Assembly (NCBI RefSeq): GCF_014698445.1
Contig: NZ_JACJSZ010000006.1
Coordinates: 1-64,000 of the forward strand
Length of the DNA: 64,000 bases
Origin: Microcystis elabens FACHB-917
GTDB lineage: Bacteria > Cyanobacteriota > Cyanobacteriia > PCC-6307 > Cyanobiaceae
Reading direction: 5' to 3'
The notes under the pieces were generated by a model. The model had not been told where the DNA came from and made no database searches. It saw only the letters and a program-made list of their open reading frames with translations. The translations under genes and the position numbers were made by a program. Shown in pieces: positions 36,399 through 43,294 of this stretch. Position 1 is the stretch's first letter, and each line of letters starts with the position of its first letter.

Positions 36399-37403
36399 CT
36401 AGGCAGCCGCGGCCGGAGCCAGGTGCAGGGCGGCCGCCAGCAGGGGGGCCGGATCGACGGCGGCCGCCAGGGGCGTGCGCGCCAGCACCAGCAGCAGGCA
36501 GATGCCGAAGAGATAGAAGATCGACCAGCGGAACAGGCTTCGGGCCCGGCGGGGATCAGCGGGATCTTCCGCCAGGCTGGCGCTCAGCTGCAGCAGCCTG
36601 GCGTTGAAGGGGAGCACCAGCAGGCCGTAAAGCCAGCCACCACTGGGGAGGGCGACCACCCCGGCCAGGCTCAGGGCCGCCGTGGCCCAGCTATAGCGGC
36701 CGATGGCCCGGGCCGTGACCGTCAGCCCCTTCACCACCGGCAGCATCGGGATGCCCACGGAGCGGTAGTCCTCGTGCAGGAGCAGGGCCAGGGCCCAGAA
36801 ATGGGCGGGGGTCCAGACCATCACCAGGCTGAACAGCCACCAGCTGCTCCAGCCCAGGTGGCCGGTGGCGGCCGCCGCTCCTACCAGGGGAGGGATCGCC
36901 CCGGCCATGCCGCCGATGACGATGTTCTGGGTGGTGCGGGGCTTGAGCAGGGCCGTGTAGAGCAGCACGTAGCTGCACAGCCCCAGCAGGGCCAGGGAGG
37001 CGGCCAGGGAGTTGACGCCCAGAACGAGCACCAGCACCGAGGAGATGGTGAGGGCCACCGCGAGTCCGAAGGCCTGGCGCTGGGCGAGGCGGCCCGAGGG
37101 CAGGGCGCGGCGGCTGGTGCGCTGCATGCGTCCATCCAGCTCCTGCTCCCAGAGGCAGTTGAGGACCCCGGCGGCGGCCGAGGCCATCGAACCGCCCAGC
37201 AGGGTGCAGAGCAGGCGCAAAGGGTCGAGCGGCCAGGCGGAGGTAAGGGCCATGCCCCCCACCGTGGTGGCCAGCAGCAGGGGGATCAGCCGCGGCTTGG
37301 CCACCTCCAGCCAGGCAGGCAGCTTCACCGACGGCCGGATCGTCGTTGGCGCAGCGGGACCGGTGGATGCGGTGATGGCCGCCACGGCGCTGACACTAAC
37401 CAT
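36399..37403 (-). CDS. ctaB: protoheme IX farnesyltransferase
   Basis: The 334-residue product is a UbiA-type membrane prenyltransferase with [25 protein letters not shown] at the start, the Asp-rich N-x3-E-x2[16 protein letters not shown] motif and the second motif ([18 protein letters not shown]). It converts heme B to heme O for cytochrome oxidase. ATG 37403 is used (upstream frame is open). It overlaps the end of ctaA by 8 bases. Confidence 0.95.
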
Positions 37404-38361
37404 GGGCCACCTCGGGTCTGGGAGAAAGGGACGGGGACGGGAGCGCGAGTCCCCAGAGACCACCGAGCACTCCCACCAGCAGGGCGGCGGTGATCTGGTG
37501 GGCGATGGTCACGGCAGGGACGGCCAGCTGCAGCCGCAGGGTGAGCACCCCCAGCAGCACCTGGACCGCCACCAGAGCGGCGGCGGAGAAGGCCAGCCCC
37601 CTCGGCCGGCCATGACCGGCGGGGAGGGCTACGGAAGCGGCGGCCAGCAGCAGCACCGCCACGGCGGCCGGGTAGGCCCCCTGCCGGTGCAGCAGCAGCC
37701 AGCGGCAGCCCTCACCGGCCTGGAGGCAGAGCGGGGCGGCCCAGCGGCTGGCCATGGCAGCACCGAGCAGGCACTGACCGCCGACAAGCAGGGCGGCCAG
37801 CACGGGGAGGGGAGACCACCAGCGCGGGAGCCGGCTGGCCGAGGGGGCAGCCGCAGGGACAGGGCGGCGCTCCAGATTCTGGTGCATGGCGCTCAGCAGC
37901 AGTACAAGGGTGAGGGCCGTGGCCAGGTGCAGGGTGACGGTGGGGGCGGCCAGCTGGCTGAGCACGGTGAGGGCCCCCAGGGCGCCCTGGACCGCCACCA
38001 GGGCCAGGGCCAGGCCGGCACTCCATGGCAGCCAGAGCGGGAAGCGGGTGCGGAATCGCAGGCTGAGGGCGAACAGCAGCAGCAGGGCCAAGCCCACCAG
38101 AAAGGCGTCGAGGCGGTGGAACCACTCCAGGAACACCTGCAGGTTCCACTGGCGACCCGGCCAGAGCACGCCGTAGCAGAGGGGCCAGTCCGGACAGGCC
38201 AGTCCGGCCTCCATCACCCGGGTGGCGCCTCCGATGGCCACCAGGGCCACCAGGGCGACGACGAGGTGGGCGGTGAGCAGGGGCACCAGGCGGACGGGCC
38301 ACTCCACCCCGGTGGCGGCCCGAGGCTGGGGATGGGGTTGCGCGTAGGGCGCCACAGCCAT
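37396..38361 (-). CDS. ctaA: heme A synthase (Cox15/CtaA)
   Basis: The 321-residue product shows eight hydrophobic helices with the heme-binding His of two half-repeats, for example [19 protein letters not shown] near residue 50 and the region [13 protein letters not shown] about residue 80, and the later [18 protein letters not shown] and [14 protein letters not shown]. It oxidises heme O to heme A. Start ATG 38361. A 105-base gap upstream contains one copy of the direct repeat described below. Confidence 0.93.
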
Positions 38362-38400
38362 GAACGTATGCTCTTCCGAATGACCAAGTTAGCGGGCATT

Positions 38401-38473
38401 GAAAGATGTGCGAATCAGCACATCGCCCGAAGTGAATGTGAAAAATCTCCGAAATTGCTTGTTCGGCTACAAC
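38401..38473. repeat. direct repeat copy 1 (upstream of ctaA)
   Basis: This 73-base segment aligns without gaps to 39361-39433, exactly 960 bases away and in the same orientation. By eye 59 of 73 positions match, including an identical run of 26 bases at 38418-38443. It lies in the gap between ctaA and the channel-like gene, whose stop is inside it. Confidence 0.9.
38405..38424. promoter_or_regulatory. perfect inverted repeat upstream of ctaA, possible operator
   Basis: GATGTGC-GAATCA-GCACATC is a perfect 7+6+7 palindrome, 44 bases upstream of the ctaA start. The related copy at 39365-39384 (upstream of ctaC and the channel-like gene) keeps the right arm but has two mismatches in the left arm. 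Confidence 0.5.
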
Positions 38474-39381
38474 TGCTTCTGTGGCGACAACGACCCCCGG
38501 CGGCGTGACGGCACCGGTCTCGGCAGGCGCGCCTCTCCCCCGGCCCACCCCCCGGCAGAACGGCGCTCGACCAGGGGAGATGGGCCCTCAGCGGCTCCCG
38601 GATCCGCGGGTCGATCCCCCCCGGGCCTGATGTGGAAGCGGCCCAGGATCAGGGCGATGAGGATGGCGATGTAAAGCTGTCCCGAAATGGTGATCACCAC
38701 CCACATCACCTGGCCGGTCACGTCGCCGCTGCGGAGCACCGCCGATCCCACGCTGGTCAGGATCATGAACGAGGCGGGCATCAGCGCCGGCGCCATCGCC
38801 ACGGCGTCGGCGATGGGATCCTGAAGCATCGGCAGGGCGGAGAGGTCGTAGGCGCCCGGATGCAGGACCCACAAGGCCACCAGCATCACCCCGCCGGCGA
38901 TGCCGCCCAGCCGATAGCCGGAGGTGGCTCCCATCACCACGGCGAGCGTCACGAAAGGCTCCCGCGCCAGGGTCTTGACCTTGCGCATCAGGGCCACCAG
39001 AAAGACCAGCAGCCAGGCGATCACATGGGGAACCGTGACGAGGCGCCCCAGGGGTGGATCGAAGGCCAGGGCCAGGTGCCACACCCCCTCCAGGGCGATC
39101 GCCAGGCCGCCGAGCCCGTACAGCAGCAGCCAGACGGACAACTGGCAGAACGGCAGCAGCAGGATCAGCAGCACCTCGGTGGCGAGGGTGAGGATGTAGC
39201 CACGATGGCGGTGACGGAGCCTCTCGATCTGCTCGTGGGGAAGGGCATCGCAGCTCCGCCCGGGGCGGCTCGGGGAGTCCCATGGTGGCAGCGGCCCCCA
39301 GCGGCGGCACGGGCCCCGGAGAGCTGATCGCCGCGGGGGCTGGTCGCCGCGCGCGGGGTTGAACGATGGGTGAATCCGCAC
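38467..39381 (-). CDS. ion-channel-like membrane protein lacking the GYG filter
   Basis: The product of up to 304 residues has about five to six hydrophobic segments from residue 60 on, a pore-loop-like stretch ASFMILTSVGSAVLRSGDV followed by a helix with TISGQLYIAILIALILGRF. In two-TM bacterial channels the equivalent is TTLGYGDI...GQLYLAVLIA, so the fold resembles a K+ channel pore but the GYGD residues are replaced by GSAV. The C-terminal third is Pro/Arg-rich low complexity. The GTG at 39381 is the only canonical start and lies within the direct repeat; the first 50 residues look non-conserved. Function uncertain. Confidence 0.6.
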   Translation of the reverse strand: MRIHPSFNPARGDQPPRRSALRGPCRRWGPLPPWDSPSRPGRSCDALPHEQIERLRHRHRGYILTLATEVLLILLLPFCQLSVWLLLYGLGGLAIALEGVWHLALAFDPPLGRLVTVPHVIAWLLVFLVALMRKVKTLAREPFVTLAVVMGATSGYRLGGIAGGVMLVALWVLHPGAYDLSALPMLQDPIADAVAMAPALMPASFMILTSVGSAVLRSGDVTGQVMWVVITISGQLYIAILIALILGRFHIRPGGDRPADPGAAEGPSPLVERRSAGGWAGGEARLPRPVPSRRRGSLSPQKQL

Positions 39382-39433
39382 ATCGCCCGAAGTGAATGTG
39401 AAATTTCTCCGAATGTGCGACTCTGGTTACAAC
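39361..39433. repeat. direct repeat copy 2 (between channel-like gene and ctaC)
   Basis: This is the second copy of the 73-base direct repeat, ending 85 bases before the ctaC start. It ends with GGTTACAAC, the region where copy 1 reads GGCTACAAC. It contains the putative GTG start of the reverse-strand channel-like gene and presumably promoter elements for ctaC. Confidence 0.9.
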
Positions 39434-39518: not shown

Positions 39519-40421
39519 GTGCCGATTCCCTCCTCCCTGGTCACCCTTTTGGTGGGCATGGCGCTTGTGCTGTCCGGCCTGTGGGTGGGGACCAACGTCA
39601 ACCTCCTGCCCCTCGACGCCAGCGCCAACGCGCCGGTCTACGACTCCCTGTTCCGGGTGCTGTTCAGCATCGGTACGATCCTCTTCCTGGGCATCGTCGG
39701 CCTCGTGGTGTTCAGCCTGGTGCGCTTCCGCCGCCGGCGCGGCGATCACACCGACGGCCTGGCGATCGAGGGCAATCTGCTGCTGGAGATCGTCTGGACC
39801 GCCATTCCGGCGGTCGTGGTGCTGTTCGTCGGCATCTACAGCTACGACATCTACGAGCGCATGGGCGGGATGAGCAGCCTCAACGACCACGCCGCCATGC
39901 ACCGGATGCCGTCCATGGAGACGATGGAAACCATGGAGGCGTCGGTGTCCGCCGCGGCCCCAGGCCTGGAGGGCACGGCCCCTGCGCAGGCCCCGCGGGT
40001 CTGGGGCGGCATCGGCACCGCCGCCGGCGAAGCCAACGTCCTGCCTGTTGAGGTCACGGCGATGCAGTTCGCCTTCATCTTCCACTACCCGGAAGGAGAC
40101 ATCACCAGCGGTGAGCTGCACGTCCCCAGCGGCCGGCCGGTGGAGCTGCGCATGAAGGCCAACGACGTGATCCACGCGTTCTGGGTGCCCCAGTTCCGGC
40201 TCAAGCAGGACGTGATCCCCGGCCAGCCCACCGTGCTCACCTTCACCCCCACCAAGGCGGGCAGCTACCCGATCATCTGCGCCGAGCTCTGCGGCCCTTA
40301 CCACGGCGGCATGCGCTCGACCGTGGTGGTGCACGAACCGGAGGCTTACGACGCCTGGCTCCAGAAGAACAGCCCTCTGACGGCCACGGTGGCCAGCGCC
40401 ATGGGCACCCCCACCGCCTGA
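39519..40421 (+). CDS. ctaC: cytochrome c oxidase subunit II
   Basis: The 300-residue product has two transmembrane helices (about 8-28 and 48-70, and a second pair region to 108), then a periplasmic/lumenal cupredoxin domain with the CuA ligands H219, C254, E256, C258, H262 and M265 (motif CAELCGPYHGGM). Residues about 118-150 form an insert rich in Met, Glu and His. A GTG at 39519 is the start, 6 bases after a purine-poor stretch. First gene of ctaCDE. Confidence 0.95.
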   Translation: MPIPSSLVTLLVGMALVLSGLWVGTNVNLLPLDASANAPVYDSLFRVLFSIGTILFLGIVGLVVFSLVRFRRRRGDHTDGLAIEGNLLLEIVWTAIPAVVVLFVGIYSYDIYERMGGMSSLNDHAAMHRMPSMETMETMEASVSAAAPGLEGTAPAQAPRVWGGIGTAAGEANVLPVEVTAMQFAFIFHYPEGDITSGELHVPSGRPVELRMKANDVIHAFWVPQFRLKQDVIPGQPTVLTFTPTKAGSYPIICAELCGPYHGGMRSTVVVHEPEAYDAWLQKNSPLTATVASAMGTPTA

Positions 40422-42189: not shown

Positions 42190-42798
42190 ATGACCAGCCT
42201 CGCCACCAGCAGCAGCGCCACCGCCGCCGAAACGGCCGCCGCCGAGGCCCACGGCGGCCATGCCGACCTGCGGCTCTTCGGCCTGGCCATCTTCCTGGTG
42301 GCCGACGGCATGACCTTCGCCGGCTTCTTCGCCGCCTATCTGACCTTCCGGGCGGTCAATCCCCTGCCGGAGGGCTCCACCTATGAACTGGAACTGCTGC
42401 TGCCATCGATCAACACCATGCTGCTGCTGGTGAGCAGCTACACGTTCCACCGTTCCGGCCGCAATCTGCTGCTGGGGCGGATGGGGCCCTGCCGGAACTG
42501 GCTGCTGCTCACCGCCGCCCTGGGGGGGGCGTTTCTGGCCGGCCAGATGGTGGAGTACTTCACCCTTCCCTTCGGCCTCACCGACAACCTCTTCGCCAGC
42601 ACCTTCTACGCCCTGACGGGCTTCCACGGCCTGCACGTCACCCTGGGGGTGATCTGCATCCTGCTGGTCTGGGTGCAGACCCGCAACGGCGGCCGCGTCA
42701 CCAGCACCGCCCCCTTCGGCCTGGAGGCCGCGGAGCTCTACTGGCATTTCGTCGATGGAATCTGGGTGGTGCTTTTTGGGATTCTTTACCTGCTCTGA
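42190..42798 (+). CDS. ctaE: cytochrome c oxidase subunit III
   Basis: The 202-residue product has an Ala-rich start, five hydrophobic segments and the subunit III features ADLRLFGLAIFLVADGMTFAGFFAAYLTF, FASTFYALTGFHGLHVTLGVICI and a C-terminal AELYWHFVDGIWVVLFGILYLL. It completes the ctaCDE oxidase operon. cyAbrB follows after 70 bases. Confidence 0.97.
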   Translation: MTSLATSSSATAAETAAAEAHGGHADLRLFGLAIFLVADGMTFAGFFAAYLTFRAVNPLPEGSTYELELLLPSINTMLLLVSSYTFHRSGRNLLLGRMGPCRNWLLLTAALGGAFLAGQMVEYFTLPFGLTDNLFASTFYALTGFHGLHVTLGVICILLVWVQTRNGGRVTSTAPFGLEAAELYWHFVDGIWVVLFGILYLL

Positions 42799-42868
42799 TT
42801 CGCTGACTGTTGCCCGTTCAGCACAAGGATCGGCACAATCAATAAAGAAGTCTCCGTCTGACCGGCTG

Positions 42869-43294
42869 ATGGGTGCCCAGAAAGGACCAGCCAACGAGGA
42901 CCGTTCAGCCGACACCGTCATGCTGGAGGGCCAGGCCCTGCTGGATAGGGCCCGTTCCCTCAGCAACCGGCCCGAGGAGCAGATCGCCCGAGCCTGCGGC
43001 TATGTGGGTCCGAGCGGTCGGGTGCTGCGGAAGAACTTCTATCGCGCCCTGGTGGCCGCCAAGGGCTATCCCGTGCCGTCGAACGCCGGCAGCGGCTCAG
43101 CCGGGGTGGGCAAGGGGCGCCAGGCCGAGTTTCGCACCCGGGTCCACGGCAACGGCAACCTGCTGATCGGCCAGGCCTACACCCGGCGCATGGGGCTGGA
43201 ACCCGGCCAGGAGTTCCGGATTGAGATTCACAAGGAGACCGGCTCGATCTGGCTGCTGCCCCTCGATGGCGCGGGTGGCGACGGTCCGTCCTGA
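42869..43294 (+). CDS. cyAbrB-type AbrB family transcriptional regulator
   Basis: The 141-residue product has the cyAbrB N-terminal part LEGQALLDRARSLSNRPEEQIARACGYVG and the C-terminal AbrB-like DNA-binding region starting GKGRQAEFRTRVHGNGNLLIGQAYTRRMGL. cyAbrB proteins regulate carbon and nitrogen metabolism genes in cyanobacteria. ATG 42869 is used; ATG 42920 gives a shorter protein. It lies downstream of ctaE, and whether it regulates cox genes is unknown. Confidence 0.9.
   Translation: MGAQKGPANEDRSADTVMLEGQALLDRARSLSNRPEEQIARACGYVGPSGRVLRKNFYRALVAAKGYPVPSNAGSGSAGVGKGRQAEFRTRVHGNGNLLIGQAYTRRMGLEPGQEFRIEIHKETGSIWLLPLDGAGGDGPS

Follow-up and report, generated by a model that had tools for sequence, protein, structure and literature searches.

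The present study analyzes the region between the heme A synthase and cytochrome oxidase genes of Microcystis elabens FACHB-917, within a window of 64,000 nucleotides (NZ_JACJSZ010000006.1, positions 1 to 64,000 of the forward strand), together with the corresponding loci of its relatives. Between ctaA on the left and ctaC on the right lies a segment carrying a channel-like gene, bracketed by two copies of a control-region sequence, here called R1 on the ctaA side and R2 on the ctaC side, or R in general. Pfam also confirms ctaB (UbiA), ctaD (COX1) and ctaE (COX3), and an AbrB-like regulator gene (PF14250; window 42755-43294, plus strand) follows directly after ctaE, its listed open reading frame starting so as to overlap the end of ctaE. 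The features of the locus are as follows.

37396-38361, minus strand: ctaA, heme A synthase, the left neighbour (Pfam COX15-CtaA, E 8e-31)
38386-38394, minus strand: AAGTTAGCG, presumptive private promoter element of ctaA, reading CGCTAACTT towards ctaA
38399-38473, no strand assigned: R1, the ctaA-side copy of the control region, 61/75 identical to R2
38405-38424, no strand assigned: inverted repeat GATGTGC-N6-GCACATC, an operator-like dyad by its sequence pattern
38436-38473, no strand assigned: AT-rich core to TACAAC in R1, by identity to the empty site of G008
38467-39381, minus strand: listed open reading frame of the channel-like gene, compared with the orthologues of nine relatives
38474-39358 (approximate limits), minus strand: inserted segment with the channel-like gene, decayed in the window genome and absent from five empty sites
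39246-39248, minus strand: original ATG of the inserted gene, with a 1-nt deletion in codon 4 relative to three orthologues
39359-39433, no strand assigned: R2, the ctaC-side copy of the control region, its left part eroded in the window genome
39460-39468, plus strand: CATAAGCTG, presumptive private promoter element of ctaC, on the duplication edge or slightly outside it
39519-40421, plus strand: ctaC, cytochrome oxidase subunit II, the right neighbour (Pfam COX2)

The first-pass annotation of this DNA had counted 59 matches in 73 ungapped positions between 38401-38473 and 39361-39433, with an identical run of 26 bases, and our recount agrees exactly; extending each copy by two bases (38399-38473 and 39359-39433) gives 61/75 at a spacing of 960 bp. 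Among same-strand ungapped 75-nt pairs at offsets of at least 200 in the window this pair ranks first, the runner-up reaching 55/75, and across the whole draft genome good matches to the segment were obtained at two places only (E 1.7e-36 and 2.4e-14), the remaining four being at chance level (E 0.9–3.1), so that no third copy was found. A search for R on plasmids likewise returned no match. The repeat similarity, whose significance the annotation had left as a question, is thus borne out both by the window ranking and by the genome search. Chance similarity or convergent binding sites as its source are ruled out by the window pair ranking, the genome search and the loci of relatives described below, and an assembly artefact is ruled out by recurrence of the same structure in many genomes. 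The original extent of the duplication was estimated from the fading of identity to the empty sites of G008, G060 and G003 in 11 relatives, which places its edges about 50–55 bp to the left and about 60 bp to the right of the ATGTGAAA anchor, a total of 110–115 bp, and gives R1 an ancestral extent of roughly 38381-38495. Local alignments past AAGTT beat all 200 shuffles in 3/11 relatives (G025, G062 and G002) and those past TACAAC did so in one (G062), and therefore a longer duplication is not claimed.

It had also been proposed that the channel-like gene starts in one repeat and stops in the other, the 960-bp unit being nearly the gene itself. The first of these statements is true of the window genome but not of the eight relatives in which both gaps were measured, where the gene ends 94–184 bp from the ctaA-side copy (TACAAC) and begins 150–326 bp from the ctaC-side copy (AAGTT site), the two copies lying 1,124–1,301 bp apart (1,311 bp in G025, in which the stop was not placed). 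The second is not supported, because the listed frame reaches into both repeats through decay of the window gene copy by a frameshift and a partial deletion: at its original ATG the window reads ATGCCCTTCCCCACGAG where G007, G017 and G002 read ATGCC(C/T)TTCACCCACGAG, and some 27 more codons are absent downstream. Judged from these alignments, the first 48 codons of the listed frame, together with its tail, are probably non-native. A sequencing error in this 121-contig draft could account for the 1-nt deletion, but the deletion of about 27 codons and the eroded edge of R2 are harder to explain in that way. The gene is broken in G022 too.

Among ten relatives compared, the orthologue is a protein of 257–258 residues beginning (M/V)PFTHEQIQRL in nine, while in G025 the frame runs on. 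Purifying selection is evident from a median dN/dS of 0.16 (45 pairs from 10 sequences), and the ten comparisons with the window copy gave 0.22–0.35. Pfam and NCBIfam comparisons of the inserted gene gave no family above its cut-off, PF07885 was not among the matches of any of eight orthologues at E values up to 10, and a PDB profile search with orthologues found nothing. The profile of the gene family did align by hhalign with two congener proteins that match PF07885 (99.4% probability, 31% identity, 220 columns), and this match to Ion_trans_2-type congeners runs through the pore-loop position. Where PF07885-matching congeners have LTTVGYGDI or LTTTGYGDI, the inserted gene has LTSVGSAVL or LTTVGSAVL, and a selectivity filter of the TVGYGD type was seen in none of the seven aligned proteins of its branch. 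Canonical-filter congeners match potassium channels in profile search. A structure model of an intact orthologue (8 orthologues) had a mean pLDDT of 45, too low to be of use. From its sequence the inserted gene most likely encodes a relative of pore-loop channels that no longer selects potassium. Among known systems, the pore-loop potassium channels of Pfam Ion_trans_2 (PF07885) and SynK of Synechocystis (PMC2853561) come close to the gene product. The present family resembles Ion_trans_2 channels in its profile-profile homology to members, a likeness that runs via congeners rather than via SynK, and differs in falling below the family cut-off and in having no GYGD filter. Derivation of the gene from a diverged ctaA copy, left by a tandem duplication of ctaA and R, was also considered and is ruled out by its kin, which are channel-like genes at other loci.

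Relatives were sampled in two overlapping ways. From a ctaC scan the best 80 of 458 relatives were taken as loci, and in nine of these (L037–L045) ctaA and ctaC are separated by the gene, which has the segment on either side of it, while four (L046–L049) have a single copy without the gene in an intergenic region of about 200–230 bp; in the DNA examined of the other 67, six of which have no ctaA match, neither the gene nor a BLASTN match to the segment (E 0.01) was found. One of the 67, L051 (CALPNT020000005.1), is titled Bifidobacterium breve, although its cta locus is cyanobacterial and clusters with MAGs of cyanobacteria; the record is probably mislabelled. A genus-wide search gave a ctaA match in 41 of 42 genomes, and among the best 30 of these 41 loci the segment is present in 17, with neither segment nor gene in 13. 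The 13 segment-bearing loci of the ctaC scan are 13 of these 17 congeners. Twelve of the 17, including the window genome and the decayed G022, have the gene with a copy on each side, and five have one copy and no gene. In the five the region between ctaA and ctaC is undivided, about 200–230 bp long, and contains the same dyad, core and both private elements as the window, from which it differs in being insert-free and in having one copy. Alignment of relatives with and without the gene, the check suggested in the first-pass annotation, therefore returns two copies in 12 and one copy in five; the gene is not common to all relatives, as 5/17 segment-bearing congeners are empty, and the suggestion of a membrane-protein gene inserted in the ctaA/ctaC control region, with copies to both sides and one-copy empty sites in relatives, is upheld.

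Trees were obtained from the CtaA–D proteins (34 rows, 10 of them occupied, without G003, G011 and G022) and from the unlinked rpoC2 DNA (20 rows). On neither are the gene-bearers monophyletic, a minimum of three changes being required on each, and for rpoC2 holding them as one clade was rejected (AU test, p 8e-6). On the rpoC2 tree the empty G008 pairs with the gene-bearing G002 (100/99), and the empty G060 and G003 stand beside the gene-bearing G024 (82/86) within a set (98/98) that also contains the gene-bearing G011 and G012. The cta tree likewise joins L046 (G008) with L045 (G002) at 100/98 and L047 (G060) with L040 (G012) at 93/87. The empty G013 and G027 fall outside the gene-bearers on the cta tree (99/99), as does G013 on the rpoC2 tree (86/89), with G027 there outside at weak support (42/93). 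The history of fewest changes is most simply one gain followed by two nested later losses. Because the nested empties lie among gene-bearing relatives on both trees, it is unlikely that they arose through exchange of the entire operon for one from elsewhere. Recombination between R1 and R2 fits the empty sites, a clean single copy being the expected remnant, although the base-level traces of such a crossover are few, weak and not decisive. At one base C is present in all three nested empties, in both outer empties and in 5/12 ctaC-side copies, against G in 11 and A in one of the 12 ctaA-side copies, but G is also found in six ctaC-side copies; and G060 and G003 share TTC with 3/12 ctaC-side and 1/12 ctaA-side copies. 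The empty sites resemble the expected ancestral site as well, which counts against the reading as losses, and the tree of R copies is poorly resolved, with one of its 25 inner branches starred.

The two copies, when scored against the empty site of G008, have kept different parts of the control region. AAGTTAGCG is exact in 12/12 ctaA-side copies, 5/5 empties and 0/12 ctaC-side copies, and CATAAGCTG is exact in 12/12 ctaC-side copies, 5/5 empties and 0/12 ctaA-side copies. With CATAAGCTG situated on or past the right-hand limit of the duplication, R1 may lack it because it was never copied there, rather than through loss. The AAGTTAGCG site in R2 has a mean identity of 0.55, and the 21 nt after TACAAC have means of 0.64 in ctaA-side and 0.94 in ctaC-side copies. 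By the same measure the dyad stands at 1.00 in R1 and 0.97 in R2, the 23-nt core at 0.98 and 0.96, and TACAAC at 0.97 and 1.00. Survival of the dyad and core in both copies, while unneeded duplicate sequence decayed, suggests that both promoters use them; the promoter roles assigned to the elements are presumptive and are drawn from conservation only. The exact dyad occurs once in the genome, with a one-mismatch form in R2 and at one other place. Of the 67 more distant ctaC-centred loci, 15 also show the dyad pattern, and in all 15 it is adjoined by AAGTTAGCG or by a form differing from it at one base. A scan of the region for standard sigma-70 promoters found none, and R1 folded as a single strand showed a weak signal (z -1.95). 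It is doubtful that the duplication gave the inserted gene the same upstream signal, as had been suggested, since AAGTTAGCG is exact in none of the 12 ctaC-side copies, which are the ones upstream of that gene. The first-pass interpretation is thus retained for the insertion and the doubled region and set aside for the 960-bp unit as the gene and for a simple shared signal. A terminator-like hairpin with a T run was also noted within R1 (window 38449-38466, minus strand), reading towards ctaA; two terminator-like sites were found against 0.7 expected by chance, and the R1 stem is unconserved by eye in relatives.

Relatives of the inserted gene were sought in 300 genomes of the family, 62 of which have a match at E 1e-45 or better. 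In two g46 genomes (G131 and G086) the gene sits at another locus, where it immediately follows a gene for an outer-membrane efflux protein (a PF02321 match in G086, its 96% homologue in G131), and in G086 a HlyD-type gene lies on its other side, facing. No cta gene or R was found in 3.8 kb of either donor-type locus, the g46 ctaA genes are located elsewhere than the channel gene, and the g46 ctaA loci gave no match to the dyad. The channel proteins of the group (4 members) are 90% identical to those of g46 (2) and 90% identical to one another, as opposed to 65% and 85% for the ctaA protein and 87% and 97% for the rpoC2 protein. By this similarity to g46, out of line with ctaA and rpoC2, the gene looks foreign and would have been acquired horizontally; its closest kin beyond the group lie at another locus in another genus, which speaks for the “insertion by recombination” offered in the first-pass annotation. 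Channel genes located at cta group together as a single clade, which is moderately supported (87/86 for protein, 75/60 for DNA).

The DNA upstream of the gene, compared with 12 efflux loci, matches the 3′ end of the efflux gene (E <1e-4) in 7/10 relatives, g46 giving the best match in four and efflux loci of the group itself in three; no such trace was found in the other three (G012, G061 and G024). An efflux-channel locus is the probable source of the insert, and g46 or a relative its likely donor. Because the trace is nearest to the group's own genes in three relatives and missing in three, an origin inside the group's ancestor is also possible. The group has efflux genes of the g46 type elsewhere, and a close channel orthologue was present at 0/10 such loci fetched; at L271 and L272 a distant channel relative, about 42% identical, stands beside a group efflux gene.

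The channel family occurs in further settings. A relative follows directly after a short-chain dehydrogenase gene at one g32 locus (L240) and one g68 locus (L245), and at the latter (L245:695-2340, minus strand) the gene immediately after it codes for a channel with a canonical filter (LTTVGYGDI), and the two may be a pair of normal and degenerate pore subunits. The window genome itself has a relic resembling the C-terminal helix of the channel family (GQLDMAILIALVLGRFHRR) at L155:1887-2072 (C34:126586-126771), with a short-chain dehydrogenase gene on one side and an NDH-2-type gene on the other. At L149 (G031:C230) a relative of the inserted gene (50%) has in its vicinity an NDH-2-type gene as well as a second oxidase-like cluster, in which COX1-like and COX3-like open reading frames were recognized by eye. 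Canonical-filter channel proteins lie beside NDH-2-type genes in several congeners (L221–L225, L227 and L214), the two genes being tail to tail in L227 and L214, the loci of this set that were read gene by gene. The channel family may be linked with respiratory genes.

Patterns detected are together well explained, and in our judgement probably so, by a single foreign insertion that doubled the ctaA–ctaC control region, with later partitioning of the copies, two clean losses and decay in place. A segment with the channel-like gene would have come from an efflux/channel locus such as that found in another cyanobacterial genus and entered the divergent control region once, in an ancestor of this group of freshwater cyanobacteria, leaving about 110–115 bp of that region on both sides. 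Entry may have been an illegitimate, target-doubling event, either a staggered break with fill-in or template switching during replication, and this is favoured because R was not seen at donor-type loci and a recombinase was not found in the window's insert. Entry by homologous recombination at R is unsupported, R being unseen at the donor-type loci and the dyad unmatched at g46 ctaA. The copies would then have been partitioned, the ctaA-side copy keeping the proximal element of ctaA and the ctaC-side copy the element of ctaC, with the shared dyad and AT-rich core maintained in both, and therefore probably needed by both promoters. Direct repeats would make the insert unstable, recombination between them deleting the gene and leaving one hybrid copy, as fits the two clean losses, and in two other lineages, the window genome included, the gene appears to be decaying in place.

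An alternative explanation could be a tandem duplication of R first, with the foreign gene inserted between the copies later. This would yield the same present structure and agrees with the 3.8 kb of donor-type loci, where R was not seen, so that the insert shows no sign of having brought R with it; but it requires two events, and paired R copies without the gene or a trace of it occur in none of the 17 R-bearing congeners, and we regard it as unlikely. Equally improbable in our view is a reversible cassette, in which the gene leaves as a circle with one R and re-enters single-R sites by homologous recombination, apparent losses and gains then being switches, as has been proposed for wzy in Salmonella. 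The two independent clean losses would be expected of such a cassette, and its geometry, a lone gene enclosed by direct repeats some 110 bp long, is that of wzy, whose repeats measure 113 bp (in an excerpt of PMC12074656). The trees, however, need no regain, R1 and R2 differ at 14/75 positions in the window, which should slow recombination, and two lineages have undergone decay rather than excision. Losses do happen, two of them nested, and it could be argued from them that the gene is ancestral at the ctaA–ctaC site and was lost in the empty lineages; this is very unlikely given that the gene is seen in 0/67 more distant ctaC loci (L050–L116, six without a ctaA match), that the empty G013 and G027 lie outside the gene-bearers (99/99 on the cta tree, G027 weakly so on rpoC2), and that close kin of the gene occupy other places in other genera. 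Target duplications of bacterial insertion sequences are usually 2–14 bp. A transposable element or integrase-borne island with R as its target-site duplication would also be flanked by direct repeats, but is scarcely credible for a duplication of about 110 bp, which far exceeds those lengths, in a window insert where no recombinase was found (the channel-like frame and four other open reading frames of 91–282 residues match no Pfam family), nor any inverted repeat pairing its two ends, with no plasmid match for R and no phage match found for the protein.

Returning to a single insertion that doubled its target, the concept of duplication-degeneration-complementation concerns duplicated genes, in which each copy keeps its own element and loses that of the other. 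The cta copies are similar in that the private elements are kept complementarily (12/12 versus 0/12 in both directions) and the common ones in both, and differ in that one bidirectional region has been doubled around an insert, the genes remaining single. Among the matches listed, the nearest published case, as far as an excerpt of that paper describes it, is wzy of Salmonella Typhimurium DT8/DT30, a single gene lying between nucA and thrS and flanked by intergenic direct repeats of 113 bp, which is lost cleanly to leave one repeat, sporadically within a clade, and whose repeats are identical, with excision, a circle and reconstitution in co-culture reported (PMC12074656). As in wzy, the cta gene is bounded by direct repeats of about 110–115 bp with a single repeat at the empty site (12 occupied, 5 empty), and clean loss is repeated on the tree (two nested losses, two trees). 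In contrast to what that excerpt describes, the cta repeats are a doubled divergent control region since specialised; they have diverged, are presumably kept by the neighbouring promoters, and are known here from sequence alone. No study of the ctaA/ctaC locus or of a cyanobacterial ctaA–ctaC control region was found in the open-access literature, among the matches listed.

The series of occupied and empty sites presents one bidirectional region that has been doubled, each half being freed from the constraint of the other, and the copies predict, base by base, the elements that would act for heme A synthesis, those that would act for cytochrome oxidase and those common to both. A more general proposal, which is tentative and which we hold to be doubtful, is that a divergent promoter can admit a foreign gene harmlessly, since entry doubles the promoter, the copies specialise by element, and the repeats keep the gene removable and possibly re-insertable. 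If this is true, the locus would be a natural, reversible, promoter-duplicating slot for genes, whose copies naturally dissect an oxidase promoter, and it would suggest a route by which transferred genes may settle in divergent promoters and later be cleanly lost.
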